A DNA stretch of 64,000 nucleotides from Candidatus Physcocola equi (GTDB lineage: Bacteria; Bacteroidota; Bacteroidia; Bacteroidales; Paludibacteraceae). This document shows positions 2,236-20,870 of the stretch, one piece after another. The stretch is taken from the NCBI GenBank assembly GCA_018064855.1, contig JAGHUM010000068.1:1-64000 (forward strand), given 5' to 3'. The translations under genes and the position numbers were made by a program. Each line of letters begins with the position of its first letter. The stretch's first letter is position 1. The notes under the pieces were generated by a model, which worked only from the letters and a program-made list of their open reading frames with translations, was not told where the DNA came from and made no database searches.

Positions 2236-3132
2236 TTAAAAATGCACACTCAATAAAATTTCGTGTGTGTTCGATGGAAGATTGTTGTATTTGCCGATGT
2301 TGAAATCGTAGCAATAACCCAATCTGTATCGGTCCCATTCAAAACCAGCGGTCGCACTCATCATAGACATGTCGAACGGACGGTTTACATCTGGTTTCCA
2401 TGTCGCTCCAGCCCAAATCATTTTTCTGAAGAACGCCTGACATCCAATTTCCAGGGTGTTGGTCTTGTGCATGTGCATGTATGAAGCCAACGGTGCGAGG
2501 TCAAACTCGGATCCAAGACTGAAGAAACCGCGCGCATAGGCGTAGTAGTGACGACCTTTCTTGAATGTGGTGGTGGAATCGTTGGTGACGTGCGTGCATG
2601 AAATACCCGCCATCCAGTGTTTGTTGCTGATCTCGGCACCAATATTGAAGTCCGGTTTTACTTCTGTTTCTTTCTCCGATACGAATGTGTTGGAATTCAA
2701 TTCCGATTCGTCGCGCAGGGTGTTGGCAAGCGGATCGAAGTAGCCGACATTCATACCAGCAGAGATACCGAGAGAGAGGATGTATTCTGGTGTGAGGTCG
2801 ATGTGGAAGGAATAAACAGCCTGTGCGTTTGTCTGGCTGTTTCCAACACCGATGTTGTCATAGTTGGCGGTGACGCCGAAACTGGATCTTAGTTTCTCGC
2901 TGTAGCCCGTGAAGTTGAACAATCCGGTCCAGGGCGCGTTATCTACACCTGCCCATTGCATACGACCAAGCAAGAAGGCGTCGAAGCCTTTGTTGTTACC
3001 TGTGCCGGCTGGGTTTACGTTGATACGAGAGAACACTTGCTGAGAGACCATCAAATCTTGTTGGGCAGAGCAAATGGTTGCCGAAAGCGCAGCGGCTGCG
3101 GCTAAAATGTATTTCTTTATATTGAGTTTCAT
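2236..3132 (-). CDS. PorP/SprF family T9SS outer-membrane protein
   Basis: The product has 298 residues with a signal peptide cleaved after about residue 23 (CSA/QQ). The PorP/SprF hallmarks are present: an early FSRINVNPAGTG block (family pattern: asparagine-proline-alanine near the N-terminus), RMQWAG, then alternating beta-strands, ending in a strand with terminal Phe (LLSVHF). Family members are beta-barrels. SprF is needed for secretion of the adhesin SprB in Flavobacterium, and PorP-like proteins partner with type B sorting domains. This is the last gene of a tight minus-strand set: 15 bp after the OmpA/PD40 gene, which itself follows the type-B adhesin by 6 bp. That order supports a role as a dedicated partner of the adhesin. 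A second PorP gene in the window (41905-42876) belongs to the core operon. Confidence 0.9.
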   Translation of the reverse strand: MKLNIKKYILAAAAALSATICSAQQDLMVSQQVFSRINVNPAGTGNNKGFDAFLLGRMQWAGVDNAPWTGLFNFTGYSEKLRSSFGVTANYDNIGVGNSQTNAQAVYSFHIDLTPEYILSLGISAGMNVGYFDPLANTLRDESELNSNTFVSEKETEVKPDFNIGAEISNKHWMAGISCTHVTNDSTTTFKKGRHYYAYARGFFSLGSEFDLAPLASYMHMHKTNTLEIGCQAFFRKMIWAGATWKPDVNRPFDMSMMSATAGFEWDRYRLGYCYDFNIGKYNNLPSNTHEILLSVHF

Positions 3133-3147
3133 GACTGTTTCGGCTTA

Positions 3148-4587
3148 TTACTCTGTGATTACTATTTCCACACGTCTGTTCTTCTGGTGCTCGTCTTCCG
3201 TTTCTGCGTTGCGGAATACAGGCTTGTATTCACCAAGTCCCATTGTGAAAAGTCTCTTTCTGTCTATACCTTTTTTCACAAGCAATCTTTCAATAGTTTT
3301 TGCTCGTTTCAGACTCAATGCGTCATTGTATTCATACGTGCCTCTTTCATCGGTGTGGCCTATGATAAGGAAACTCTTTTTAGGGTTGTGGTTGATGAAT
3401 TCAATGATGACCTCGATGTCTTTTTCGTAGTTGCCATTCAGCACATCTTTGTCGTAATCAAAATAGAAGATACGTTTGTCATAGGTGGCAACCACATTTT
3501 TTGAAGCGCGAATGACGGTGTCCTGATTCTGCTTGAAGGCATTGTTAAGAGTGGATGCAGACTGCTTTTCCACCTCGTCGTTGGTGTTTGTGTTGGCAAG
3601 CACTTCCAAGATGCGGTCGTTTTCTGTGACTATGACTTCGTCTTTAGGTGTGAACTCGTCTTCAATGTCACCCTTGAGAGCCATGTCTTCTTTTTTATCA
3701 TCCTTGGCAGGTGCGACGGTTGCGGAATCTGTCACAGCCAAGGCTGGAGTGGAATCCGCAATAGCAATGGCTGGAGTGGAATCTACTTTGTCGGCCAGCA
3801 GATTCTGGTTTTCATCCGCTTTCTTGGCATTCTCCGCATCTTTGTATTTCTGGAGGGCCATTGGCTTGTTCCAGTCTTCAATCTTGCTGATGTAGGCGTG
3901 AAATTTGCCGCTGTCTGGCACTGCGTTCATGCCCTTGCGGTTCGATCCGAATGCGATCAATGAGTCGTTGAATACCACAGGCACTGTCTCATCGGCGAGG
4001 CTGTTGACTTCTTTGCCCAATCTTTCTGCCGGGGTCCATTCTCCGTCTTCATTTATCTCTGATTTCCAGATGTCCCATCCCATGGAACCTTCCGCATTGG
4101 ATGCAAAGTAAATGGTGTTGCCATCGCTTGTGACTGAGGGGTTGATGATGGCTGCTTCGTTGGCTGGAAGATAGCGCCAACTGGCATAGGCAAGCATGCT
4201 GCCGTTGAATTCGTTGCGTTCCTTGCCCAAGCCCGGAATCCATTGCTTCTTCCCGGATTTGAACTCTCCCACGCCTTTTTCTTTTGCGGCATAGATGTTG
4301 CCATCTTTGCTGTAGAAGAGTGTTCCGTTTTTAGCGTATGTCAAAGTACCGTCGGCTTTGAGTTTGGATAGTTTTTTGTTGTATTTCAAATTGACAATAC
4401 CATTGGCTGTCTTTTCTCCGATAAAGATGCTGTCGCCTTTTCTGACGAACACCAGATTGTCTCGGTAATTGGTGAAAACGTCTTCAACTGTCGCGTTTTC
4501 GTGTTTGGTGAAGTCTCCTTGCTGTTCGCTTGCTACGACTGTTGAGACGCAGGTGAGCAAGAAAGACAGAATATATAATGCTTTCAT
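3148..4587 (-). CDS. OmpA-family protein with PD40 repeats (PorE/SprE-type envelope anchor)
   Basis: The product has 479 residues. A signal peptide ends near residue 19 (VVA/SEQQ). Residues about 30-235 contain PD40/WD40-like beta-propeller motifs (NPSVTSDGNTIYFAS, GWDIWKS, LIAFGSNRKG). A Pro/Ala/Asp linker near 270-300 has a repeated DSTPA(I/L)A unit. The C-terminal 105 residues form an OmpA-C domain: YFDYDKDVL, GHTDERGTYEYN, LSLKRA, GLGEYKP and NRRVEIVI. The Asp of GHTDERG and the Arg of NRRVE are the usual peptidoglycan diaminopimelate ligands. The protein should sit in the periplasm and tether an outer-membrane assembly to the cell wall. It lacks the TPR block of PorE, so it is a relative rather than a clear orthologue. 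It is translated 6 bp after the adhesin and 15 bp before PorP/SprF. Confidence 0.88.
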   Translation of the reverse strand: MKALYILSFLLTCVSTVVASEQQGDFTKHENATVEDVFTNYRDNLVFVRKGDSIFIGEKTANGIVNLKYNKKLSKLKADGTLTYAKNGTLFYSKDGNIYAAKEKGVGEFKSGKKQWIPGLGKERNEFNGSMLAYASWRYLPANEAAIINPSVTSDGNTIYFASNAEGSMGWDIWKSEINEDGEWTPAERLGKEVNSLADETVPVVFNDSLIAFGSNRKGMNAVPDSGKFHAYISKIEDWNKPMALQKYKDAENAKKADENQNLLADKVDSTPAIAIADSTPALAVTDSATVAPAKDDKKEDMALKGDIEDEFTPKDEVIVTENDRILEVLANTNTNDEVEKQSASTLNNAFKQNQDTVIRASKNVVATYDKRIFYFDYDKDVLNGNYEKDIEVIIEFINHNPKKSFLIIGHTDERGTYEYNDALSLKRAKTIERLLVKKGIDRKRLFTMGLGEYKPVFRNAETEDEHQKNRRVEIVITE

Positions 4588-4593
4588 AATGGC

Positions 4594-7500
4594 TTACTTC
4601 TTAAATACTTGAATTGTTCCTTTCTTAACTCGACCGTCTTTGAGCGTGAGCGAGTAAACATACACGCCAGCGTCGGCAGTCTCACCTTTGTATGATCCAT
4701 CCCATCCGTTGCTGCCGCGGTGGATGAGGTTCCCGTATCTGTCGTAGATGAGAACTTCATATCCTAGCATGAAATCGTCGTTTTCTCCGTTCTTCTCGTG
4801 TGGGGTGAATACGGTAGGAATGGTGATGTTGTCGGTGAGGGCGATAAACAATTTATCGCTCTTCACGTCTTGGCAGGAGCCATTGTTCGCAACGAAATAG
4901 TAGGTGACGTCTTGGCTAGGCATGTTGGTGAACATATAATCTTTTGTCTCATCCAAATCAAGTTCGTTGCCATCTTTATCTACGCTGAACCAATGGAGTG
5001 GTCCTTCAATGCTTCCGTCGAATGAAGCCACAAGATCAACGGTGCCGCCATATACGAATTGAGTGGAAGTGGTGGCGATGTGTGCCTTGCGTGGAACGTC
5101 AACTGTGATGGTGAAGTTGGATGTGTCGCTCACTGGGCAGATGTTGTCGTTGCCCTTCACCCAATAAGAACCTGATGCTTGCGGCTTGATGATTCTTTCT
5201 GGGGTCTTGGTGATTTCTCCGTCCCACCAGATCCATGAAGTTGGATTGCCTTCTTCTGCAATGGCGGTCAGGTGAATGGAATCTTCTCCCAACTGACAGA
5301 TTCTGTCGGCATCCGCCGAAAGTTGCAATTTGATTGGCTGGTTGACGTAGATGCTTATCGTGTCGTCGTCTGAAGCGCATTTGCCGAGTTGGCTGTTCGC
5401 CATCAAATAATATTTGGCGTTTGCTTTTGGTGCCACCTTGATGGTCTTTGCGCTTTCTCCGTTGTTCCAGTTGAACTTGTAGTCGTTCCCGGCTTCAAAT
5501 GAGGCTGTGAGTGTCACGCTGTCTCCGGCGCAAATGTTTTTAGCCGATTGGTCGATGGTGACATTCACATGCTTGTCGATTACGATGGATACTGTGTCGA
5601 ATGTTTCAGCACAAGCACCATCTTTGTCGATGGCATGGAATACAAACTGGCTCTTGTCGGCTACGGCGTCAACTGTGATGCTGGAAATGCCTTTGTCGTC
5701 AAGTGTCAGCGTCATGTTTTCTGGAATGTTGTTGATGGCTGATGTCTTGATGTTGAAAGTGATTGTTTCCCCTTCACATACGGTGTCTGCGCTCAGGCTT
5801 GTAGTGAATTTCACATTGCCAGATACTTTCACATCCTGTGCCAGGTTGATACTTGGACAAGCGCCCAACTTAGTGCTTACCTTCGCCTCGTAAGTTGTCG
5901 TCTGTGTCGGCATTGCGTGGAGGGTGTCTCCTGTGGCGCTGAATCCGTTCCATTCATAAACGAGGTCGTCTCTGTCTTCTGAATTCAAGATGGAAAGAAT
6001 CACGTTGCTTGAGTCTTCGCAGACGAATTTTCTGTCGCTTGTGAGTGCGACATTGCCTTCTATGGCTTTGTCGATTGCGATGTTCACAGTGTCGAATTGA
6101 TCTGCGCAAACGCCATTTTTGTCGAAGGCGTGGAATACATATTGGCTCTTGCTTGGAACGATGCTGAAAAATCCCTCAAAGACGCTGTCGTTGTCAAGAA
6201 TCAAACCCATGTTAATCGGCATTGGGACGTAGAGGTTTGTGTTGATGTCGATTTTGATTGTGTCACCTTCACAAATGGTGTCCTTATTTACGGAAGCCCA
6301 GAACATAACGTTGTTGGATACCTTTACTTCCTGTGACAAGTCCACGCTCGGACAAGCGCCCAGCTTGGTGCTCACCTTTGCTTCGTATGTTGTGGTTTCT
6401 TCTGGTGCTGCGTGGAGTGTGTCTCCTGTGGCGCTGAATCCGTTCCATGCATAAACGAGGTCGTCTCTGTCTTTTGCTGAAACAATTGAAAGCACAACGT
6501 TGCTTGAGTCATCGCAAACGTAATCTCTGTCGCTTGAGATGGTGACGTCGATAGGGTTGTCAATGGTGATTTTTACAGAGTCTATTGCATCCGGACAGTA
6601 GCCCAATTCGCTTGCTGCCACAACTCTATAGGTGATAGTGTCGGCTTTTACGACTCTGCTCAATTCCGAAGTGCTGTCTTCCCAAAGGACAGAAGCAGGT
6701 TTGCCTGAGAGTATGGTTGCGTTGATCTTTACAGTGTCTGACAAACAAGCCAGACTTTTGCTTGCATTCACCTTGATCTTGATGCTGTCTTCCGATGCGA
6801 TTTGCTTCTGCGCTTTGCTCAGTTCTTTGCCGTCTTTTACCAAGGCTACTTTAACCAATGTGGCGCCTTCGATGCTGAGGTTGGCTTCAGTCTTGCCCTT
6901 TGCGCTTGGCACTTCTGTGAATGTGCTTTCGCCTTCCTTCTGAGTGTACCATACAATGCTGGTTCCTTCACTCAAAGAAGAGAGGTTCTCCCCGTTGATC
7001 GTGAGGGTGACATTGTCTTGTCTTTCACAGATGCCATACACACCAGGCTCGAAATAGATGCTCTTGTTGGTGATGGTGATTTCTTCACCGATTTTATCGG
7101 CATGGACTGAGTCTGGCACGATTTCACCTTTCCCGACCTTTTCACAATCGGTACCCGAAATGATGCGGATGATGTGTTCTTTCTCATTCATCTTTTCGGT
7201 ATTGATCAAGATGGTGGTGTCTTTGGTTGGCCCTGCAATCACAACCCAGTTTTCTCCTTGTTTTTCCTGAACTGCGTAGCAAAGATCAAACTTCTTGTCT
7301 GTTGGCTTGATGATAATCTTTGTGGTGTCGCCAGTTCGTTCTGTTGTCTTGGTGCTGTCTTCGAATGTGTATTCAAGTTCGGAACCACATTGTTCTCCGC
7401 CAATCTGAATGGTCTTTATGGCGAATACCTCAGAGTCATCTGTCGTTGTTGCTTTTACGATGACATCTCCTTCAATTCCCAATTTGTTTGCCTCGATATT

Positions 7501-10233
7501 GCCCTCTGTGTTGACTTTGGCAATAAGATCATTGCTGATAGACCAGTTGATGGCTTTTCGTGTGGCGCTGTCTGGAGTGATAGTCGCGATCAACTTCGAC
7601 GAACCGCCGATTGGCAAACAATCGATTCCTTCCAGTTTGATATCGCTCACTTTCACTTCGTCTTCAACGAGGATGTAAATGGTGGTGTCGTTTACCACTT
7701 CATAACTTCCTTCATGACCTTTACCATAATTGAGATTGTATGCGTAATTGCCTTGTTCACAGTCCATATTGATTTCACCCATGTTTGAGGTGTAATCGGT
7801 GTTAAACATGCTGCTGTCTTTCGTTACCACCAACTCCAACCCTTGCATTGGGGTGTTGCTGTTCTTGTTCTTAACAATGAAGCGCACGTGCTTCATGATG
7901 TCGCCCTTCATGATGTCGAATTTCAAGTCATAGTCGCCGACAATGAAATTCCTGACGATGTCGAGAATCTGAATCTGATAAAGACCTGGGAGCAGGTTGT
8001 CTCTGATGATACCATTCACGTCTGAACGTAATGGGTAGTGCGACAACTGGTCGAAATTGGTGTCTTCGCTAAATTCCTTCTTCACATCGTCGTATTTGAG
8101 GATTTTTCCGAACACACCTTCCACTTCATTGCCCAGCGCGTCTTTGATGCTGATTTCCACATTTCGTTTCACTGGAATAATGATGTAGATAGTGGTGTCG
8201 GTGCCTCTGGCACTATGAATGTCGAAATCCCATTTGCAATCACCATTGTAGAAGAAATCGTTCATCTTGTAGTCAAGTCTGTAATTGCTGTTAGGCAATA
8301 CCATCGGTTTCCTGAATACGAAATATTCCAGTCCGTTTTTGCTGACTTTTTCCGAAGGAACGATTGCATATTTGCTTCCTTCAACAGTCTTGTTGCCATA
8401 CTCATTGACAACGGTGTCGAATTTTGTCAGGCTTAAGCTCATTATCTGGGGATCGACAATCTCGCCGTTGTGAACAAATCTGTAGTACACATTTTGTACT
8501 ATATCGTCGTATATCACATAGAGAGTGGTGTCGCTGGTCAGATCCGCGCAAATTTTCTTTTTTACAATCTGATAGCAAACTTCACCCTTACGGTGTCGGC
8601 TTAGGTATTCACCGTTTGTTTTGGTGTCAAATGACGATGAACCATTGGCGTCTTTTACAGTGCCGCTGAATGCATTGATGTATCTTGATATGGTGTCTGA
8701 CTTGCATACAATCAAGTTGACTTCGTATATAGGAATGAGATTATACATCGCATATTGGGTACTCATGCCTTTGGGCACGTTGACCATACTGCCTAATCTG
8801 TTGCTGTATCTCATTTCATTTATTTCAAAACCGAAATAGTAAAAACCAGATCCCACTCTGACTGGCTCATCGTAATATAGTGTGTCGCCTATCGTGCTTT
8901 TCTTGTTTGGAAACAGGAAGAATGTCGATGACATAACACCTCTTTCGTTGTAGATTTCGCCAGTAAATTCAACTCTTTTTACGGTAGTCGGGTTGAATTT
9001 TTCATGGTCATATTGCAACTCATAGTACAACTCTGTGTAGTCTTCACGGCTGACATATCGAATGATAGTGGTGTCGTGATTGACACTGCCAATGTGGTCT
9101 TTTGAGTCTCCGTAATAGATGTCCAAATTTGCTTCTCCGCCTAAACCGAATATCGCTTCTCCATTGCTGTTTGAAGTGTTGAAACTTGAGACAAAAAGCG
9201 AATCAACTTCTTCGATATAGCTTACCAAATTGCTGACTGGCTTTGTTGGATCGTTTTTGTCGAAAAATTGTACAGTCAGGGTGTACATAGGTATCAATAA
9301 GGAGTCTAATCTCTTTATTGGCGGTATGTTGCTGTGATTGCCGCCACCATTGCCTCCGCCGATTGGATCTGGCAGCGGAATGGGAATAATCAGACTTTCG
9401 ATTGCGTCATTTTCTTTTACTTCAAATGTGTCTTTTATAGTTCCATAGTCTTTTGTGCTGACTTCATAGATGTAGATTCCGTCGCGAAGGCTGACCTTAT
9501 TGACTGCTCTGTCGTATTCTATCCATTTGTTGATGTCAATGTCCGGCCCGTGTGCGTCCATACTACCATACGGAGTTGCGGTCCCGTTGTTGATTTGATA
9601 AACGAGAATGTCTTTTGCCCATGTCTTCTCGGGTTTCCCCTCGCGCTGAAACTCAAAGAAACCATAGTGGGTAATGATGCCACTTGTGACAGAAACGTCT
9701 TTTGTTTTGTTCTCGTCATCGAGTGTTACCTTTTCTTTACCCTTGAGTGTGTTGAAAGCATAATCTCCCTCAGGAAGTGTGAACTTCACATTACCTGTCG
9801 AGTCGCTGTATTTGATTGAGATGAACTCTTCCTGACCATCAGACTGTATGTGGAAGATTTCCGCACTTTTGCCAACCAATGGCTCTCCTTTGTCGTTGCT
9901 GAAATGAATGGTGAGCTCACGGAAGTTGACGTTAACCCATCCAAATTCGGCTTCTGGCACCTCTACTGTACCTTTTGCCTAGTCTCCGTATCTGACGTAG
10001 TAACTGTAGGTTCCTGTCGGGAACTTGGCATTGGTGTACTTGCCATCTTTGTCTGTAGTCAAAACTTGGTCTGAAATGCTTCCTCCTTTCAGATCGATTT
10101 TCACATCTTTTAATGGCTTATTTTGCGGATTGGTCACTTGGAAAACCAAGACACCCTCTGCAAAGGTTGTGTGAACGGCAAAACAAAACGCGAAAGCGAG
10201 AATTGTTTTAAGCAAAAGAAATCGTTTGAACAT
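4594..10233 (-). pseudogene. SprB-like giant adhesin with type B T9SS sorting domain, interrupted by in-frame TAG
   Basis: One frame runs from ATG at 10233 to TAA at 4594-4596 (1880 codons including the stop), broken only by TAG at 9979-9981, codon 85. The upstream 84 codons give a signal peptide (cleavage near TTFA/EG) and the start of an Ig-like domain (FQVTNPQNKPLKDVKI). After the TAG the same frame continues as AKGTVEV and goes on for 1794 codons. The next in-frame start-like codon is a GTG at 9960, which would have no signal peptide and is not credible. The body has many Ig-like modules, a BIG2-like block (AINWSISNDLIAKV) and two near-duplicate 170-residue units (about 5.8-6.5 kb). The end is a CHU_C/type B domain: IPTVFTPHEKNGEND, VLIYDRYGNLIHRG, WDGSYKG, GVYVYSLTLKDG. 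The frame is intact otherwise, so the TAG could be recent, a sequencing error, or read through. TAG is a true stop elsewhere here. Confidence 0.85.
9979..9981 (-). other. In-frame amber codon within the adhesin gene
   Basis: On the minus strand the codons read TAC GGA GAC TAG GCA AAA GGT ACA. The frame before and after is the same, with no length change, so a single base substitution (for example from CAG, AAG, GAG, TAC or TGG) accounts for it. It separates the signal peptide from everything else. Confidence 0.9.
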
Positions 10234-10252: not shown

Positions 10253-10260
10253 CAAATTTA
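10253..10260 (-). promoter_or_regulatory. Candidate -7 box of the type-B adhesin gene
   Basis: On the minus strand this reads TAAATTTG and lies 20 nt before the ATG at 10233. The same box occurs before the 3441-residue gene (20808-20815). A -33 TTTG is not evident because the expected site falls in the hairpin at 10268-10296. Confidence 0.5.
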
Positions 10261-10261
10261 A

Positions 10262-10300
10262 ACAAAAAAAGTGAAGCATTGGTTATGCTTCACTTTTTTC
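10262..10300 (-). terminator. Hairpin between the two giant genes (shared hairpin, copy 1)
   Basis: A perfect 12-bp stem AAAGTGAAGCAT (10268-10279) / ATGCTTCACTTT (10285-10296) has a 5-nt loop TGGTT, with T-runs on both sides. It lies about 105 nt after the stop of the 3441-residue gene and can terminate it. The same hairpin, identical except one loop base, is found before that gene at 20834-20870. Confidence 0.8.
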
Positions 10301-10403: not shown

Positions 10404-13400
10404 CTATTTACATGGTTCCACTGCTTTCACCATTAACACTTTCTGCTGGCAAGTGTTGCTGTGGGTCCCGCATTTTTTCGCGGTGAAAGTCCAGTAGGTG
10501 TAGCCAAACGGAGCTTTTGTTTCTATGTGGTCGCCTACAACGGTGAAGTCAAGCTTGTCTGTGATTTCGTTGGCATCAGCATCTGGCCCGTCAAACACGC
10601 TGATGTCCCAGGTGAGTGGGGTGGAACAGTGTGTTTCGCCAAGGTCAACTGAAGGCAACGGAATGTTGTAGGTGTCGTCTGTCATTCGCATTCCTCCTAC
10701 TTCCCTACATTTGATGACGAATGGCTTGGCGTTGATTTTCAATACTTGTGTACAAGAGTAGCCCTTGTCTTTTACATTCCACAAAATTGTTCCGATTTCG
10801 CCCTTCTCGTAGGTGTCGTTGATGCTGGTGTTGCTGAGTACGAGGGTGCGACTGCTGCCGCAAATGTTGTAGGTCTTCGGATTCACACTTGCCAACGCCA
10901 TTACCACATCTTCTTTTGAAGCAGGTCCGTCGATGCGCAGGGTGTCGAGCGCAGGGCAGATGTGGTCTTTCAAGTTGAAAGTGTACTCACATTCGTTTGT
11001 TATACCGTCGGTGTGGTTAATTCTCCATTCGAATATCTGGCTGTTTCCGAGTTTGACGATTCCATCGGGATCGTAAGCCATTTTCGTTCCACCACTTGGT
11101 TTGTAGTAGAAGGTCATGCACTCTTTATCTGGCACCTCGAAACCTAACCTGTCTTTATCTGCATTTATCAGGTCAACCAGTTCTTTCTCTGTAATTTCGC
11201 AAGAGTTGGTTAGGTAAAGGTCGCCCAAGTCTTTCGCATTCGACTTGTTTCGAGGGCATGTTATGTTGACTTTCACCTTATACTTGCATTCTTTTATTGA
11301 GCCGGCCTTCACCCTCCAACCTACATATTGTTCGTCTTTCGAAGTCAAAGCGTCGGCATTGAATGCCGACTCCTCCGAACCTTTCTTATAGAACCAGCTG
11401 ATACAGCTGTTCTGAACGGTGTCGGGGAATGTTAAGCCAAGGCTTTTTTGTACAAAGTCAACCAATTCGCCTTGTGTTGGTGAACATGATGAACCGCTTA
11501 TGCTGAGATCTCCAGCACTTGTGTCGCTTTTTTTCACAGCACAATCTGCATTTTTGACATTGAATTTATATTTACAAGTATAGTAATCTGATCCGGATTT
11601 TATTGTCCAGCCAATATATTGGTTACTTCCAAACGGCACAATTGAGTCTGCTTTGAACTGATATCGTTGTGTTTCAGTCGCATTACGGTAATGATGCCAA
11701 TCGATACAATCGGCAGTGGAATCGGGGAATGTGAAATTCCATTTTTCCTGTGCCATATTTACAATATCGCCCATGGTTGGCGGACAAGCGGAACCATCTA
11801 TTTCGATGGTGACGATTTCATTGTTTTTTTGGTTGTAACAAAGGTTCTTGACATTAAATTTATATTGGCATGTGCTTACCTGGCCGTCTGGTGACTTGTA
11901 TTCCCAACCCACAAATTGGTTGTCGGCAATATTAACAAGCGAGTCGGTCTTGTATTTTTCTTTTGTAGAACTGTTTCTATAGTAGTACCAGTCGATGCAA
12001 TTGGTTGTGGTGTCGGGGAATGATATGGTCCACTTTTTTTCTGCCATCTTTATCATGTCGCCCATAGTTGGTGGACAATCAGTACCTGCCAATGTGATGG
12101 TTTCGATTGTTTCGCCGCTTTTATAAGGGCAGGTGTAGATAGCGCTGAATGGGTATTTGCAGAAGTGTTCCTCGCCGTCGGTGGTGTATTTCCAACCCAC
12201 GTATTGTTTCGACTGTAGAAGCACGTCGTCGTCAATTCCCTTTTCGTTATTGTCTTTGTCCCACGCTGTCCAGGTAACAGATGGACAATCGTCTTCCGGC
12301 ATTGAGTGCCCTGCACTTTTCGCAACAATCCTCAACTGGTTTATGACGTCTTTGTATTTGTAGGAATCGTCGCAGCGGCTTTCGTCAAACGACATACTCA
12401 CCAATTCGCTACTATGGGTGTAGTTGCCGGCTGCCTTTGCGTAGGGACATAATCCAGGCTCAATTCTGAACTTGTATTCGCAGTTCTTAACATTGTTGTT
12501 AATGCCCGAAACAATATAACGCAATGTGTGTTGTCCGCTTGAAACAGGGGCTTCCATTCCTGTAGTTACGTCGTTGAATACATTGCTGGCGTCGGTCGCC
12601 CAGTGAACTTGCTTCTTGGTGAGGCAGTCGTTGTATTTTTCTGTAAGGTCTGCCACCAGTTTTGCCTTTCCCCATTTTTCGATGTCGTCGAGATTGGCAG
12701 AACAAAAATCGTAGAAAGTACCCCAATCATTTGGTGTTGGACAAGTATATTCCACTTTGAATTTGACGGCTTTCGGACAAGTGTACTCAGTGTTGTCACT
12801 GCCGGTGAAACGCCATTTCAGGTAATATTGAGGGCCTTTTTTGAATAGTGGTTTCGCTAAATCGGATTCCGATTCCGTTTTTGCCCATGTTTTGTTGTCG
12901 GAACTGTAAATTATGGATACTGCGGCTGGGCAATTCATTGAACTTGTTGGCTCTTCGAAACCCTTCAGTTTGGCAATTTCCAATACTTGCTTAATGGATG
13001 TGGCACAAGAATCGATTGAGATGTTACCCAAGTCGAAATCTTTTTCGTTGCATGTGTAATTCAGCGTGAGGTCTGGCACAATAAACTTTTTTGTTGTGTC
13101 GCTGCAACAATCGCCGTTTTTGGCGATAAAGTAAACCCATTGTCCTTTCTCATGAATCTGCTGGTCGAGAGCCACCGTGTCTTCAATGGTTGTGAACTTG
13201 GTGTTGTCGTCTGATGGCAATTTGTCGGCCGTCAGATTTTCGTCGTAGTCATAAATCTGGAACTTGTAGGTGTTTCCCGCCACGTCTTCACCAATTTTTC
13301 TGAAATCGTAGTTGTAAAAGCATTGTTGTTTGGCTTCGAACTGTGAACTTGAGAAACTGACAAGTGAATCGGTCTGCATCAAGTAGTCGTCACCATAGAT

Positions 13401-16400
13401 TTCAATCTTTGTGTCGGGTGTGAGAAGCGGGTTCTTTAATGCGAAGTAGTTAGACTGCAGCATAATCATTGGCGTGGTGTCGGTGGCATTGTAAAAACGC
13501 ACATAATAGTTGTTGTACCCTTTTTCTGCGGCGCCGTTAATCATGCCGGAACTTTCACAGTAGATGATGCTGGCTTTCGAAGGAATGGAAGTTACGTATA
13601 TATAGGCACCATGCTCTTTCGACTGACCATCACGGTCGGTACAGTCTGCAGCCTCGATGGTCAAACGTGCAGAGTCGCCCACATAGGCTGAAAGGTTAAA
13701 CGAAATCGGCTGCCAACCGGTGGTTACATAACATTCGTTGTGGTTTTCTTGTGAGAATGCCGCTAAATATTGGTCTTCAACGGCCGATGTTACGACTTTG
13801 CTGGTAAGCTCCTGGTAGCCAAGTCCCTTTGGACGTTTGCATCCATCACTGTTGTCAACATCGAAGTTGGCCTGGTGAAATTTGTTGAAATTTGAAGCGT
13901 GTTGGGTTTGTATTACAGTGAATTTGTCTTCCTGTTCCATTTCTCCCTTGCCCTCGTATGCGAAACCTTCACGACGGAAATAAATGTTGCGGGCATCATC
14001 GTTTTTATTTGGGTATGGCAGACAAACATTGGAGCGCATGTGGGCAATTGAGCCTGGCATACGAATCCACTTGCCATTGTGTTTCACTTCCACTATGACT
14101 GATGTGTTTGGACCTCTGCCTATATATTTGCCTTCAGTTGAGCGTTCGTAGTAGTGGCAACCAACGTGGGTAATGTCGCAGGAAAGGACAGTGGCATAGC
14201 GCAAGCGGAAGTCTTTGTTGTCTTCGTCAATGAGGAAGGTGTGTTGTGCACGATCGGCAGACCCCTGGCCGTTGGGCGCCAAACCGAGCAACTTCTTATC
14301 GAGAGTCAGATTCATGTAACTGCCAGACGTCGGATAATAGTTAGAGATGGTCAAATTGCCAAAATCTTCAGTATATTGTTGTTGAAATTTAGGAAAATCC
14401 GCACCGCAGGCTCCATAGTCGGCCACACTGTGGTAATTGGCGTATCCCCATTCCGAAAAACCATGGCGTTGCAAGAAATTCTTGTGGGTATTGTTGTTGT
14501 GGTAGGGCACCATGCTTGCACCCACACGGATTACGGCGAAACCTACGTTTGGCATGATTGGCAACAACTGGTAGTCGTCGTCAAGCATGGTGTGCTTGTA
14601 GGTGGTGCCGAACAGTGGGTCGTAGCCCGGATTGGTCTTGTAGATATAGAAGCGGTAGTTCTCTATTTCGCCTTCGGTTTTGAAATTAGACACAATTGGG
14701 TGGTAGAGAGGGTCTTTGTTCACTACTTTCAGTTCTCGGTCAAAGTCGGCATCCGTTCCACCATTGGTGGTTGGATCAACATTATAGACATATTCGATTG
14801 GTTTTTCTTCAAGGTTGAAATCGATTTCTGGTGACCAACCTTGTGCCGAAATGGTATTTCCATCCACAGTCCCGTAAAAGTCGTTCCATGGTTTTGCCCA
14901 AGCAACAAAACTATTTCCTCCGTTCAGTTTGTTCCAGTTGGTAGTCTTTAGTGGCTGTGGGTTTTGTGAGCCTGTCAGTCCTTTGCATACTTCGGCATGG
15001 TTTTTCCGGGCTTCATGGTCGTTGTAGTATGATTTGAAGTAATGGTCTTGCGAACCATAAGACAGTTTCCAGTCTTTAAACGAGGTGCCCACCACATCAA
15101 AACTGTAAAGGTCGAGCACATCTTCGCTGTAGCATGGATTGTAGGCTTTGGTGAGGAATATCTTCGCCTTGCAGGTGGCTGTCGCCCCGCACATGGAAAC
15201 AGTGACGCTCACGTTGGAGTAGCCTTCTTTGAAACTTCCTATAATGGCTCCGTGTGCGGCATCTATGGATGTATTGGCTACGGGGTTGCCTTCTTCGTCG
15301 GTGGCTGTAAACGAAAACTCGGGATCGTCGAGGCAGGCTTCTTTGTTGAGTTTGAAAACACCGTCGAGTGCTATGTCGCCGTTGGTGAACGATATTTCAG
15401 AAACTGCCCTGCCTATATCGTTACATTTGATGTCTGGTTTGTAACTCTCCACATCTACGAATACAGAATCGGTGTCTGAACAACAGTGATTGTTCTCCAC
15501 AATCAAGTAAACCCACTGGCCTTCGCCTCCGATAGACTGGGTCATTTCCGTGTCGTCATATTCCGTGTAGGTATCGGTGGCTTTCGGTGAGGCATCTTGG
15601 GTCAGGCTTGGTGAAGGGTCGTAAACCTTCCAAATGCGTTTGCTGGCAGAGTGGTGGCTGGTGGCGAAAGTAGTGGCGTCGGTAAGCTTAACTATTCTCT
15701 CTTTACCTTTATAGGCTGAAGGTGTGACGTCAATTTTTACGTTTGGCGCTGTTGATACCACCATAGTATCGATAAGGATGGAGCCGTTGACATATAACTG
15801 GATGCGCGGATTTCCTCCCTTGTGTCCATAGATGTTTCTGAATGCGAATGATGATTCTTTTACAGAAATGAGTGGTGTTGTGTCTTTCCCTGAAATCAGT
15901 CGGAAGGCGTAGTTGTTGAATCCTTTCGACAGTTTTACGTCTATGCGTTCTGTCTTCGGACAGTATTGCAGATCGAGATCGAAGTGCCGGGCATTGAAAT
16001 ACGTGTAGGCAGAGTGATAGCACGAATGACCGTTTACGTCGTTACAGTCGGCGTTCTGAACCGAGAATCGTACTCTGCGACCCACATAATCCTTAAGGTC
16101 GAAACACAAAAGTTGCCAACCGGTGGTTACGAATGCTTCGTTGTGTTGGTCGTTTGTGCCGCTTATGTAGTTGGTCAGTGGGCTTTCGTTTGTTTCAGTT
16201 TGCTTGAATCCCAGTCCGGCAGGATGGGTGGAACAGGCATTGTCGAGATTGAATGTGGCTTGGTGAAAAAGTCCCGACTCGTAGTTTCTATTAAGATTTG
16301 AAAGACTGTTGCTGCCTGTGCCTAACTGTGTTGTGGGTGAGCAGTTGAGAATGGATTTTGGAAGGGTAATCCATTCGTCGCCATTCTGAACCTCAACCAA

Positions 16401-19400
16401 GATGGAGAAATTGGCCTCTTTACCCACATGACTGATGGTGTTGTTGTCTTCTGCGTTGACGTTGCTCACATAGTTGCCTTTGTGTAGTGGGAAATCAGAC
16501 ACATCCACACCTAGCACAGAAGCGTAATTTACCAATAGGAACGGATGAGCGGCGTTAACCACAAATGTGGTCTGTGCCCTGTCTGCAACTGCGTTGGCAG
16601 CCGGTGCTAAAGGTAAATCGATGGTTGGTGTTTTGCTGGTGTATTTTGTGTCGGTTATGCAAAGTTTATGGTTGTAAGTCAGTCTGCCTGCGCTGTTGCT
16701 GGCAACTGCATTGTTGATAGCAGCACACGTTCCTTCTCCCAAATCGAAGTTGTTTAATCCATAGAATTCGGCGCCTCCGGCTTTAGGCAGATAGCTGCTA
16801 TTGTGGAATGGTACCGAAGATGAGCCTACGCGCATGGATGTGGTGTAACCCTCAGGCACCACCTTCAACAAAGCGTATTCTGGTTTGCTGACGGTGTGTG
16901 GATATTGTGTGCCGAAGAGTGGGTCGTAGGCATTGACGTCGGTATTTAGATGAAAATGAGCGGCGTTGACATCTGTAGAAGAACACTGCGGACCAAAAAT
17001 TACGGGTGTTGCACCTGAAATGACAGGTAAAGGTATGTCAGAATCTACGCATTTAAATTTGGTATAGGTGGTTACGCTGTTCTGGTAACTTATGCTGTAA
17101 ACATTCTCGACGGTTTCTGGAGTGGAGTTGTAGTTGTAGGATGGACTGTATGTTGTGCCTGAACCCTCTACTGTTCCGTAGTAGTTGTTCCATTTGTCTG
17201 CCCACAACATGTCGTATAGCGACAATTTGCTGGTTGTGGTCAGTTTGGTGTCAGGTATTCGTCCCCAATATTGTACTGGAATGTGCTTGAATGCTGCGGC
17301 TCTTCGTTGGATGCTTACCGAAATATTAGTCTGTTCACAATAGATACGCTGCTTGCCCCATAAGTTTAAGTAATAGTTTTTACGAGCGTCTGCAGCGTCG
17401 AAGTGGTAGTCTCCAAAACGGTCTTGGGTGCCATAAGACAGGTTCCATCCACCGAGGTCGTCACCCACCAGATTTGTAAAGGCGGCAGGTTCGTCGGCGT
17501 TGCCGGCACAAGGTTCGAGTGATTCCAGATTGAAGTATTCTTTTGTGCAGGTCTGTGGTTCAGCAGAGTCATTGGTGCGTAGTTCAAATTTCACTTTGAA
17601 GAAACCGTCAGGGAATTGGGCAACCAGCATTTCGCTGTTTTTCTCAACTTTCCCGCTAAGATTTGCTCCGTTTCTATCCTTTAGCACTTTCCCGTTTTTG
17701 TCGGTAACTGTGTAGGCCCAGTCGTAATGTCCGGCACAATCTTGAATGCCGCCAACAACAGGAAACGGAATGGCAAGTGTCCCGTCGTCGGCTCTTCTCG
17801 AAAGCTGGTTGAACGATGTAGAACAGTCGATGGTTGGTTTGAGCACCTTCATGTCGAATGAACCGTTGTATGTGCATCCATAAGCGTCTCTTACTGCGTA
17901 ATTAAGCGTGTAGTCATTTGTTGTCGCTGGTAATTCAAATGGAATATCAAATTCTTGTCTTTGCCCGTTAATCAACAAATATGCTTCGGGTTTGGGATCG
18001 GCTGCTGAGGTGAACGTGACTGCTGATACTTGTCCGTAACATAAGTCGGTAGTTGATATGCCCACATTAAAGTCGGCAAGTGTTCTCTCATTACATCCTC
18101 TGGTGATGTTTATGGTTTGGTAACAATAGAATTTTTTTCCTTCAAATTCTAATTTCCAAACTACATAAGTGATACCAATGGGATAAGGATCATTTAGCCC
18201 TCGTCCGTCATTATGAATGCTTTCGTTGATGGTTTTCCCATCGGCGCTTACTGGATTGGAGAGATAACGGCCTGAGAATACGAATTCAACGCTATAATCA
18301 TGATTGTTTTGTTGCGGAAAGTAATGTTTGGCCACAATCAAAGGTAACTCTGATGTTGTGCCTGGCGTAACTGTGGTTTGCCCGTCGGACACATGCGCGA
18401 TGTGGTTTTCCAATTCTCCGCACACATCGGGCTGGCAGTCGCCATCGGTAACAATAATCGTTGCGTCGCATGTGGCAATGATGTCGCCATTAGTGTTGGT
18501 GAGGTTGTATTTGAACGGCTGCGGATTTGAAATTGAGCAGTCAGCGCCAGAGTGTGTGTTTATTAAGTTGAAATTGGCATAGGAGGAAACCGACAGACCT
18601 GGTATCTCAAATGGACTTGAATGACAAGCGTTGGTGTAATAGTTTTCTTTGCGTACATAGTCGAGCAGTTTTTTACCGCTTACGCTACTGCGGTCTGTCA
18701 CTTCCAATTGCAAAGGTGTGACTGGACAGGTACCCATCGGATGGTTTACTACCACTTGCGCGGAACATACACAAATTGGAGCGCTGCTGTTTTTCTCCAA
18801 CAATTGGTAATAGATGGTATATGGTTTTTCCATGCATCCGTCATGTGTGGAGTCGTGAGTGATGTGGTAGATGTTGTTGAGGGCAATGTCTGGTTCGTCA
18901 ACGCAGTCAAAGTCTGCCTTGTAATACAAGTTATCCATGCTTTTGGTTTCGAGCAGAGCATGTAGAATATCGGTGTTGTTTGCCTCCTCTAGGTTGATAT
19001 GCAGTTTTACCTCTTCTGTTGGACAGACTGGTTTTGTTTTTATTGTAAATACTTGTTCACAGGATGTTAATAGGTTTTCTTCAGTTTTGTGTGCCCCTTC
19101 TTTGTAAATGTCGGTGTGCAGTGTATATGTTTTACCGGCTATGAAATTTGCATTGTCTGCTAATTGACGCTCGATTGTGTTGTATGTATCGCCTTCTACA
19201 TAGTAAGTGGTGGTGTTGGTCGGCACATAAATATTATTGTTATTTTCTTTCACCTTAGGCAAAGGAAGTTGGTCTTTCACATCGGTAAAAGTCATAGAGC
19301 AACCTGTTTTTGTATATACCTCTGGTTTCAGATCATTGTCGATGCATTCTGTGCAGCGTGTGCTAATGTGTCCCGAAGAGGTGATTTCAACATTGTCGAT

Positions 19401-20729
19401 TCTCGATTTTGCGAAAATCATCACTCCATTATAGGTTTTGAAATAGTCTTTCACAATGTTGTGGATGTCTCCATAGGTCGTTTGCAACACCGCTGTGCCG
19501 TCGTTCGCTACTGTCGTGCGACCTATTTCAAGATTTGAGTAGGTGTGTTGGCTGGTGTTGTTCTTGTCAACACCTTCAATTATCCAAGAGAGTTCTGTGC
19601 CAGGCTGAAAGTTGTAGGCAGTGGCGGTGAATGTTTTGTCAGGATTTTCCAATTCCGGACAAATATCTGTGGCTTCTACGCAGATGTAACGTGGGCAGAT
19701 ATCTACTTTGATGTAGTCGAATGCCACTTTGCAGTTGTCTCTGTCGCTTGTGGTGTTGGAACTCAGCGAACATACTCGGTTTGTCTTTCTTGTGAAGTTG
19801 TCGATGTTTGGTACGAAAGGAACGTCCACGATAAGCGTGTATCCAATATCTGTGCGTAAATTACCGTTTTTATCTTTAGCCGAGTCTGGAAATTTTATGT
19901 TCCCGTAGTATGAACTTAGTTTTGTTGAGACAGGTTCGCAACCATCGGGTATTATGGTTGCAGTGACTTTGCATTCTTTATCTCCACTAATTCTAAAATC
20001 GAAATTTATTAACTGATCGTGGTGAACAGCATTGTTTCCAATCGGATTAAAAAGATAAAAGTGGTAAGTGATGCGCACACGCTGACCACTGAACATCTTG
20101 TCGTCGAAGGTCAGTGCGAAGTCTTTCTTGTTGCTGTTGTTGCTTGGTACGTAAAAACACCTTGAGTCAGACAGCTCTATTGGAAGTCCCTGGCCGTTGG
20201 GAAATACCTTTTTCAGATCGTTGGTGATGATGTAAGAGTTTGAGACCGAAGTGTTTTTGTTGAACTCCTTAAACTCGTTATTGTTTGAGCCTTCTGTTGA
20301 AAATTTTATGGATTCTGGGAAATCAAGTTCCAGGTTCTTCCATGCGTAACTGGTTGAACCTCCGGGGTAAATGTATGAATCGCTTGAAATGGCAGAACCT
20401 GGCCTGAAATGTGTGCCATATCCCTCCAGTCTGTCGTAGTCGGCAAAAGGATTGGAACAATTGTTGGCAAAGGCAGGTTTTATGAAGATTGCTAATATGC
20501 ATATACATATTGCTATCTTCAATAATCTTAATTCAAAAATTGTTGAAAACAGTTTTTTGCCCCTTTTAATACGTAAAAACCTATCTGGTTTGTTATCAGT
20601 TTTTGCGTTCGCATTGTTCGTGCATGCTGCACATTCGTTTGCTTTAGCATTGTTACAAAATAGTGGCAATACAGCAAACGGCAAGACCATAGCAATGGCC
20701 ATGCGATTTAACGCCCAATTTTGTCTCAT
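10404..20729 (-). CDS. Giant secreted multi-module surface protein (3441 aa)
   Basis: The product has 3441 residues. The N-terminus has two hydrophobic stretches, residues 10-24 and 69-88. The second looks like a full signal peptide (cleavage KPAFA/NN), and a TTG at codon 70 (20520-20522) could be an alternative start. The -7/-33 promoter at 20808-20838 suits the ATG at 20729. The protein is Cys-, Thr- and Asn-rich. It contains a duplicated 680-residue module (about 1085-1765 and 1873-2545; 792 residues apart, sharing LSYG(T/S)QD, ARKN and YDPLFGT(Q/T)Y), then about seven diverged tandem units of 95-110 residues (about 2560-3290) with CPPTMGD and CIDWYY-type blocks. I see no type A or B T9SS sorting domain at the C-terminus (end: VKAVEPCK), which is odd in this context. 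Ends in TAG; the same frame stays open 28 more codons. It lies upstream of the adhesin-OmpA-PorP genes, separated by a terminator. Function unknown; a surface adhesin or matrix protein is inferred. Confidence 0.85.
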   Translation of the reverse strand: MRQNWALNRMAIAMVLPFAVLPLFCNNAKANECAACTNNANAKTDNKPDRFLRIKRGKKLFSTIFELRLLKIAICICILAIFIKPAFANNCSNPFADYDRLEGYGTHFRPGSAISSDSYIYPGGSTSYAWKNLELDFPESIKFSTEGSNNNEFKEFNKNTSVSNSYIITNDLKKVFPNGQGLPIELSDSRCFYVPSNNSNKKDFALTFDDKMFSGQRVRITYHFYLFNPIGNNAVHHDQLINFDFRISGDKECKVTATIIPDGCEPVSTKLSSYYGNIKFPDSAKDKNGNLRTDIGYTLIVDVPFVPNIDNFTRKTNRVCSLSSNTTSDRDNCKVAFDYIKVDICPRYICVEATDICPELENPDKTFTATAYNFQPGTELSWIIEGVDKNNTSQHTYSNLEIGRTTVANDGTAVLQTTYGDIHNIVKDYFKTYNGVMIFAKSRIDNVEITSSGHISTRCTECIDNDLKPEVYTKTGCSMTFTDVKDQLPLPKVKENNNNIYVPTNTTTYYVEGDTYNTIERQLADNANFIAGKTYTLHTDIYKEGAHKTEENLLTSCEQVFTIKTKPVCPTEEVKLHINLEEANNTDILHALLETKSMDNLYYKADFDCVDEPDIALNNIYHITHDSTHDGCMEKPYTIYYQLLEKNSSAPICVCSAQVVVNHPMGTCPVTPLQLEVTDRSSVSGKKLLDYVRKENYYTNACHSSPFEIPGLSVSSYANFNLINTHSGADCSISNPQPFKYNLTNTNGDIIATCDATIIVTDGDCQPDVCGELENHIAHVSDGQTTVTPGTTSELPLIVAKHYFPQQNNHDYSVEFVFSGRYLSNPVSADGKTINESIHNDGRGLNDPYPIGITYVVWKLEFEGKKFYCYQTINITRGCNERTLADFNVGISTTDLCYGQVSAVTFTSAADPKPEAYLLINGQRQEFDIPFELPATTNDYTLNYAVRDAYGCTYNGSFDMKVLKPTIDCSTSFNQLSRRADDGTLAIPFPVVGGIQDCAGHYDWAYTVTDKNGKVLKDRNGANLSGKVEKNSEMLVAQFPDGFFKVKFELRTNDSAEPQTCTKEYFNLESLEPCAGNADEPAAFTNLVGDDLGGWNLSYGTQDRFGDYHFDAADARKNYYLNLWGKQRIYCEQTNISVSIQRRAAAFKHIPVQYWGRIPDTKLTTTSKLSLYDMLWADKWNNYYGTVEGSGTTYSPSYNYNSTPETVENVYSISYQNSVTTYTKFKCVDSDIPLPVISGATPVIFGPQCSSTDVNAAHFHLNTDVNAYDPLFGTQYPHTVSKPEYALLKVVPEGYTTSMRVGSSSVPFHNSSYLPKAGGAEFYGLNNFDLGEGTCAAINNAVASNSAGRLTYNHKLCITDTKYTSKTPTIDLPLAPAANAVADRAQTTFVVNAAHPFLLVNYASVLGVDVSDFPLHKGNYVSNVNAEDNNTISHVGKEANFSILVEVQNGDEWITLPKSILNCSPTTQLGTGSNSLSNLNRNYESGLFHQATFNLDNACSTHPAGLGFKQTETNESPLTNYISGTNDQHNEAFVTTGWQLLCFDLKDYVGRRVRFSVQNADCNDVNGHSCYHSAYTYFNARHFDLDLQYCPKTERIDVKLSKGFNNYAFRLISGKDTTPLISVKESSFAFRNIYGHKGGNPRIQLYVNGSILIDTMVVSTAPNVKIDVTPSAYKGKERIVKLTDATTFATSHHSASKRIWKVYDPSPSLTQDASPKATDTYTEYDDTEMTQSIGGEGQWVYLIVENNHCCSDTDSVFVDVESYKPDIKCNDIGRAVSEISFTNGDIALDGVFKLNKEACLDDPEFSFTATDEEGNPVANTSIDAAHGAIIGSFKEGYSNVSVTVSMCGATATCKAKIFLTKAYNPCYSEDVLDLYSFDVVGTSFKDWKLSYGSQDHYFKSYYNDHEARKNHAEVCKGLTGSQNPQPLKTTNWNKLNGGNSFVAWAKPWNDFYGTVDGNTISAQGWSPEIDFNLEEKPIEYVYNVDPTTNGGTDADFDRELKVVNKDPLYHPIVSNFKTEGEIENYRFYIYKTNPGYDPLFGTTYKHTMLDDDYQLLPIMPNVGFAVIRVGASMVPYHNNNTHKNFLQRHGFSEWGYANYHSVADYGACGADFPKFQQQYTEDFGNLTISNYYPTSGSYMNLTLDKKLLGLAPNGQGSADRAQHTFLIDEDNKDFRLRYATVLSCDITHVGCHYYERSTEGKYIGRGPNTSVIVEVKHNGKWIRMPGSIAHMRSNVCLPYPNKNDDARNIYFRREGFAYEGKGEMEQEDKFTVIQTQHASNFNKFHQANFDVDNSDGCKRPKGLGYQELTSKVVTSAVEDQYLAAFSQENHNECYVTTGWQPISFNLSAYVGDSARLTIEAADCTDRDGQSKEHGAYIYVTSIPSKASIIYCESSGMINGAAEKGYNNYYVRFYNATDTTPMIMLQSNYFALKNPLLTPDTKIEIYGDDYLMQTDSLVSFSSSQFEAKQQCFYNYDFRKIGEDVAGNTYKFQIYDYDENLTADKLPSDDNTKFTTIEDTVALDQQIHEKGQWVYFIAKNGDCCSDTTKKFIVPDLTLNYTCNEKDFDLGNISIDSCATSIKQVLEIAKLKGFEEPTSSMNCPAAVSIIYSSDNKTWAKTESESDLAKPLFKKGPQYYLKWRFTGSDNTEYTCPKAVKFKVEYTCPTPNDWGTFYDFCSANLDDIEKWGKAKLVADLTEKYNDCLTKKQVHWATDASNVFNDVTTGMEAPVSSGQHTLRYIVSGINNNVKNCEYKFRIEPGLCPYAKAAGNYTHSSELVSMSFDESRCDDSYKYKDVINQLRIVAKSAGHSMPEDDCPSVTWTAWDKDNNEKGIDDDVLLQSKQYVGWKYTTDGEEHFCKYPFSAIYTCPYKSGETIETITLAGTDCPPTMGDMIKMAEKKWTISFPDTTTNCIDWYYYRNSSTKEKYKTDSLVNIADNQFVGWEYKSPDGQVSTCQYKFNVKNLCYNQKNNEIVTIEIDGSACPPTMGDIVNMAQEKWNFTFPDSTADCIDWHHYRNATETQRYQFKADSIVPFGSNQYIGWTIKSGSDYYTCKYKFNVKNADCAVKKSDTSAGDLSISGSSCSPTQGELVDFVQKSLGLTFPDTVQNSCISWFYKKGSEESAFNADALTSKDEQYVGWRVKAGSIKECKYKVKVNITCPRNKSNAKDLGDLYLTNSCEITEKELVDLINADKDRLGFEVPDKECMTFYYKPSGGTKMAYDPDGIVKLGNSQIFEWRINHTDGITNECEYTFNLKDHICPALDTLRIDGPASKEDVVMALASVNPKTYNICGSSRTLVLSNTSINDTYEKGEIGTILWNVKDKGYSCTQVLKINAKPFVIKCREVGGMRMTDDTYNIPLPSVDLGETHCSTPLTWDISVFDGPDADANEITDKLDFTVVGDHIETKAPFGYTYWTFTAKKCGTHSNTCQQKVLMVKAVEPCK
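10900..13050 (-). repeat. About seven diverged tandem units coding for 95-110 aa repeats
   Basis: Inside the giant gene, blocks such as CPPTMGDMIKMAEKKW, CPPTMGDIVNMAQEKW, CSPTQGELVDFVQKSL and CEITEKELVDLI recur about every 285-330 nt, each followed by an FPD...CI(D/S)W(Y/H/F)-type motif and a WxxxxxxxxxxxCxYKF-type motif. DNA similarity is visible between adjacent units (around 11770 and 12060). Boundaries are approximate. Confidence 0.8.
13060..17500 (-). repeat. Two diverged copies of a ~2-kb coding module in the giant gene
   Basis: The first copy begins near 17475 and the second near 15110 (offset about 2376 nt, 792 codons). Both contain the CCATAAGACAG stretch (17431 and 15055), the YDPLFGT block, a RVG(S/A)S(S/M)VP(F/Y)HN block, an ADRAQ(T/H)TF block, an YVTTGWQ-like block and a CCSDT motif near their ends. 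This is an ancient internal duplication. Confidence 0.8.
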
Positions 20730-20838: not shown

Positions 20839-20870
20839 AAAAGTGAAGCATTGGTCATGCTTCACTTTCA
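20834..20870. repeat. Shared hairpin, copy 2, directly upstream of the giant-gene promoter
   Basis: Perfect stem AAAGTGAAGCAT (20840-20851) / ATGCTTCACTTT (20857-20868) with loop TGGTC. It is identical to the hairpin at 10268-10296 except for one loop base, including the preceding ACAAAAA run. It is some 290 nt beyond the LytTR gene stop, and a separate terminator (21014-21048) lies closer to that gene. Between these sites, 20871-21010 holds nothing recognised. Confidence 0.75.

Follow-up and report, generated by a model that had tools for sequence, protein, structure and literature searches.

A single in-frame TAG near the start of a type B T9SS adhesin gene of Candidatus Physcocola equi, probably a recent nonsense allele

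Introduction

A signal peptide is needed by all T9SS substrates (PMC12618676), and type B substrates encoded with a cognate PorP/SprF shuttle and a PorE homologue form a known arrangement (PMC12618676; PMC9143113). Such sets of genes are found in operons of Flavobacterium johnsoniae and as PG1035-PorP-PorE in Porphyromonas gingivalis, where the type B protein PG1035 is non-essential and unexpressed in one strain (PMC9143113). In-frame TAG codons are known from TAG-reassigned gut phages, namely crAss-like phages using genetic code 15 (PMC9523058). A search of the literature on premature stops in MAGs found nothing.

Here we describe a type B T9SS adhesin gene that is stopped near its start in an uncultured gut or rumen bacterium, Candidatus Physcocola equi. 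The gene lies in a window of 64,000 nucleotides, by which we mean the whole stretch of DNA analysed (assembly GCA_018064855.1, contig JAGHUM010000068.1, positions 1 to 64,000).

The interrupted adhesin gene and its operon

The adhesin gene spans 4594..10233 on the reverse strand, and its 1880 codons contain no stop other than the terminal one and a TAG at codon 85 (9979..9981, reverse strand). Translation thus bears out the original prediction of a frame intact save for this codon. The prediction had also placed a type B sorting domain in frame downstream of the TAG, with which the profile matches agree (TIGR04131/CHU_C, 4606..4821, reverse strand): the CHU_C match of Pfam reaches 28.3 bits (cut-off 27), and that of TIGR04131 is borderline, with 34.0 bits when the whole protein was scanned (cut-off 35) and 38.4 bits, over the cut-off, in the genome search. 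The N-terminus, MFKRFLLLKTILAFAFCFAVHTTFA (10158..10233, reverse strand), looks by eye like a signal peptide and aligns with the N-termini of the homologues. In this copy the signal-peptide-like start and the sorting domain share one frame with the TAG between them, whereas in all aligned homologues they stand on one translated protein. About 20 bases before the adhesin ATG, TAAATTTG (10253..10260, reverse strand) is a candidate match to the Bacteroidota -7 box, TAnnTTTG, and is given as a lead only.

The TAG falls within a carboxypeptidase-regulatory-like domain (PF13620, approximate limits 9950..10140, reverse strand). Indeed, the 84-aa piece alone matches positions 5-56 of the 82 of the Pfam profile with 28.5 bits, below the cut-off, and the frame read across the TAG with an X matches positions 5-72 with 36.8 bits, above it. 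Coding scores in the adhesin frame are 0.72 and 0.82 on the two sides of the TAG, compared to -0.15 and 0.40 in the other five frames. A chance alignment of open frames is out, since both sides are coding in one frame and homologues span the stop.

The list of ORFs splits the gene into 84 aa (9979-10233) and 1788 aa (4594..9960, reverse strand), the latter starting at a GTG at 9960 and lacking a signal peptide. This GTG, 6 codons past the TAG, is the first possible restart, and the first ATG follows about 139 codons on. Its proximity is the one point in favour of two separate genes, or of an ORF restarting at 9960 as a working cytoplasmic protein. However, the TAG cuts the PF13620 domain, every aligned homologue is one ORF (see below), and without a signal peptide the periplasm is out of reach for a T9SS substrate (PMC12618676), which makes this explanation highly improbable.

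The adhesin gene heads an operon on one strand, in the order adhesin, PorE-like gene and PorP/SprF-like gene, which is kept in a related genus. The PorE-like gene (PD40 and OmpA domains, 479 aa, 3148..4587, reverse strand) begins 6 bases past the adhesin gene and the PorP/SprF-like shuttle gene encodes 298 aa (2236..3132, reverse strand); both are intact, and are respectively 56 and 74% identical to the genes at the same place in the related genus. The locus therefore has the downstream PorP/SprF-like gene, often accompanied by a PorE-like gene, that goes with type B CTD T9SS substrates. In the related genus (G023:C17; L105, L106), the whole cluster of adhesin, PorE-like and PorP-like genes is duplicated in tandem, and the operon of the window most resembles the second set, to which the identities above refer. 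The same-genus genomes G002 and G003 have the shorter type of adhesin only.

Nearly identical hairpins, GTGAAGCA-TRACCAA-TGCTTCAC followed by T7G, occur at 10271-10293 and 20843-20865 (reverse strand), the former just upstream of the adhesin gene and the latter upstream of a 3441-aa gene; the rest of the window and about 740 kb of further stretches contain no other copy. Another terminator-like hairpin, recognized by eye, already lies past the LytTR gene upstream of 20843, so that the copy at 20843 may be a leader or attenuator and not a plain terminator.

Homologues

The N-terminal 288 residues of the adhesin, with an X at the stop, were searched against 358 genomes of the same family and matched in 35 of them, own genome included. 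Relatives with named records are MAGs of Paludibacteraceae or Bacteroidales, and the sources named are mostly ruminant foregut and horse faeces. Thirty homologues were aligned across codon 85; each of them begins with a signal-peptide-like segment, keeps its frame unbroken and has a sense codon where the window has the TAG. The column itself is not conserved, its residue differing between clades. Apart from the TAG of the window, no internal stop was found in the adhesin homologues of the 358 genomes; the apparent break in G360, considered as a parallel interruption, is a run of N. The copy in the window thus carries a premature stop in a frame that homologues keep open, as is typical of a nonsense allele or pseudogene.

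The original prediction would have been overturned by homologues encoded as separate proteins, and the single ORFs running through codon 85 in all 30 led us to reject that reading. Judging from these alignments, the 84-aa and 1788-aa ORFs are normally one protein. The closest clade is about 50% identical to the adhesin over the N-terminal 286 aa, and within it the dN/dS of the gene is about 0.06-0.17 (Nei-Gojobori, 780 codons), so that the gene evolves under purifying selection and is normally functional. No copy of the locus from the same species was found in the genome contigs or viral contigs searched, and a DNA search of 60 relatives returned no ortholog of the adhesin gene at the DNA level.

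TAG as a stop codon in this genome

TAG does work as a stop in this genome. The prfA gene is intact (440.9 bits against a cut-off of 423, with an open frame of 372 aa), and in 808 kb of the own genome TAG is the stop of 35 out of 404 ORFs with 250 aa or more. Both rimP and the 3441-aa gene (10404..20729, reverse strand) terminate in TAG, on which the earlier claim of a true stop had been based. This claim is now strengthened, as the TAG of the 3441-aa gene matches the position of a TAA in its homologue: the window ends in ...KAVEPCK-TAG and a same-genus relative in ...KDVETCK-TAA, at the same residue.

This control gene encodes a predicted surface protein for which no family was found at E <= 0.01 over the whole protein, and no T9SS sorting domain. 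A weak relative is present in one same-genus genome. The only signal-like hydrophobic stretch of the protein is at about residues 66-88, hence the gene may in truth start further downstream than the ATG at 20729.

No CUA anticodon is present among the 46 tRNA genes of this genome. The draft, in 121 contigs, is 90.3% complete, which leaves room for a suppressor tRNA in the remainder. Interrupted genes were sought with a six-frame hexamer scan of 808 kb (about 27% of the genome), requiring coding sequence on both sides of a stop and no ATG within 15 codons; it replaced an earlier scan based on codon usage, which gave many weak and mostly antisense candidates. Seven sites were retained. Codon 85 accounts for the sole TAG among them, and at no other site is the sequence directly before and after the stop clearly coding with an ATG absent from the vicinity. 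The six others are mostly ordinary gene junctions, as judged by eye. Two of them, a TGA at L141 17304 (minus strand) and a TAA at L139 13687 (plus strand), are weaker candidates for interruption in the own genome.

Genome-wide recoding of TAG was rejected on the tRNA set, the intact prfA, the usage of TAG and the single site in 808 kb; under a reassigned code, or one suppressed in general, more in-frame TAGs would be expected. Indeed, none of the marks of TAG reassignment was found, be it a CUA tRNA, recurrent in-frame TAGs or a TAG unused as terminal stop, or the loss of RF1.

Read-through, switching and editing as possible alternatives

Weak or conditional suppression or read-through of the TAG would still yield some full-length adhesin, and the undecayed body of the gene could be explained by selection on the read-through product. 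However, the tRNA set, the intact prfA and the lack of a second in-frame TAG in 808 kb all speak against it, and the stop is shared by no homologue, which gives no hint of a conserved device. A structured read-through signal was likewise rejected, as the RNA past the stop folds no more stably than shuffled sequences do (z = -0.23). We consider read-through very improbable. The original prediction had listed its options without ranking them: recent loss of function and assembly error both fit the evidence, whereas suppression is disfavoured by the observations just given.

Surface adhesins are commonly phase-variable, and the genome encodes many other type B adhesins, two points in favour of a reversible on/off switch, in which the point mutation and its reversion would both be kept in the population. 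Nevertheless, we identified neither a repeat tract nor an invertible segment nor any other hypermutable element at the stop, nothing evident would make a single point mutation arise more often, and none of the 358 genomes contains an interrupted homologue. Such a switch is thus very unlikely, and we give an equally small chance to the broader view that the TAG is maintained and not decaying, either as a polymorphic on/off allele or through conditional read-through, for example by a phage-borne CUA suppressor tRNA. If it were so, a whole surface operon would be switched by one codon.

Finally, TadA could edit the mRNA from A to I and thereby convert the stop to a sense codon. Such editing of mRNA exists in bacteria, with UACG as its reported motif (PMC12214031), and UAG editing is frequent in some fungi (PMC11156358). 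The context at codon 85 is UAGG, however, so the motif is not matched and the candidate was rejected; with neither a second candidate gene nor a stable hairpin, the probability of editing is negligible.

A possible assembly error or strain mixture

The main rival is that the TAG is a consensus base error, or a base of a minority strain introduced by the merging of strains, the real gene being intact. The assembly has the look of a draft MAG (2.38% contamination, with the contig number and completeness given above), the frame, the sorting domain and the operon partners are as intact as an error would leave them, all homologues are intact, and this is the only clear in-frame nonsense codon in 808 kb. 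On the other hand, no independent sign of mis-assembly was seen at the locus, and short-read assemblies seldom contain single-base errors in their consensus. We regard an error as unlikely, yet as a good deal more plausible than any of the alternatives above.

A probable recent nonsense allele

The explanation that we favour, and consider probable, is a recent nonsense mutation in a dispensable type B T9SS adhesin, which would make the observation an ordinary one. The intact gene would encode one exported protein with a Sec signal peptide, the carboxypeptidase-regulatory-like domain, Ig-like repeats and the type B C-terminal sorting domain, and the PorP/SprF-like protein of its own operon would receive it as shuttle. 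A recent point mutation in the sequenced strain would then have turned codon 85 into a stop, and termination there would leave an exported fragment of 84 aa ending inside the first folded domain. The adhesin is probably missing, because any restart product would lack a signal peptide and stay in the cytoplasm. We thus infer a real and recent mutation, with no full-length protein made; the intact PorE- and PorP-like genes may be expressed less through polarity.

In the body past the TAG, about 155 stop-creating changes are expected per substitution per site, and more with indels. None of its 5.4 kb shows a further disabling change, which bounds neutral decay at about 0.4-0.7% divergence, with an assumed ratio of 5-10 indels to 100 substitutions. 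Together with purifying selection in the nearest clade, this lack of decay leaves three possibilities, namely a very recent loss, a loss that is not real, or a product that is still made; an assembly error would leave the body undecayed too. Loss of one adhesin is plausibly tolerable, since the own genome has about 15-20 type B sorting domains (15 over the cut-off, 20 at E <= 0.001) and nine PorP/SprF matches, two of which are fragments at contig ends. PG1035 of P. gingivalis, non-essential and silent in one strain, is a precedent (PMC9143113).

A recent nonsense allele would add to the cases in which strains of gut Bacteroidota have lost a surface protein, here against a background of many parallel type B adhesin systems in the genome. 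Its importance would grow if the two alleles coexisted within a population, or if the stop did not prevent full-length protein from being made.

Comparison with known systems

The crAss-like phages of code 15 resemble this locus by an in-frame TAG and a gut-associated Bacteroidota setting (PMC9523058), but here the gene is bacterial, the site is single and TAG is used as a stop without a CUA tRNA. Compared to recent nonsense pseudogenes by which strains lose a surface protein, the present case is known from one draft assembly, in which the TAG may or may not be fixed in the strain and may be an assembly error; it shares with them one stop in an otherwise open frame, intact relatives and paralogous adhesins. 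The operons of F. johnsoniae and PG1035-PorP-PorE of P. gingivalis differ from the copy in the window by its stop at codon 85, and are like it in the signal-peptide-like N-terminus, the type B sorting domain and the PorE-like and PorP/SprF-like genes directly downstream.
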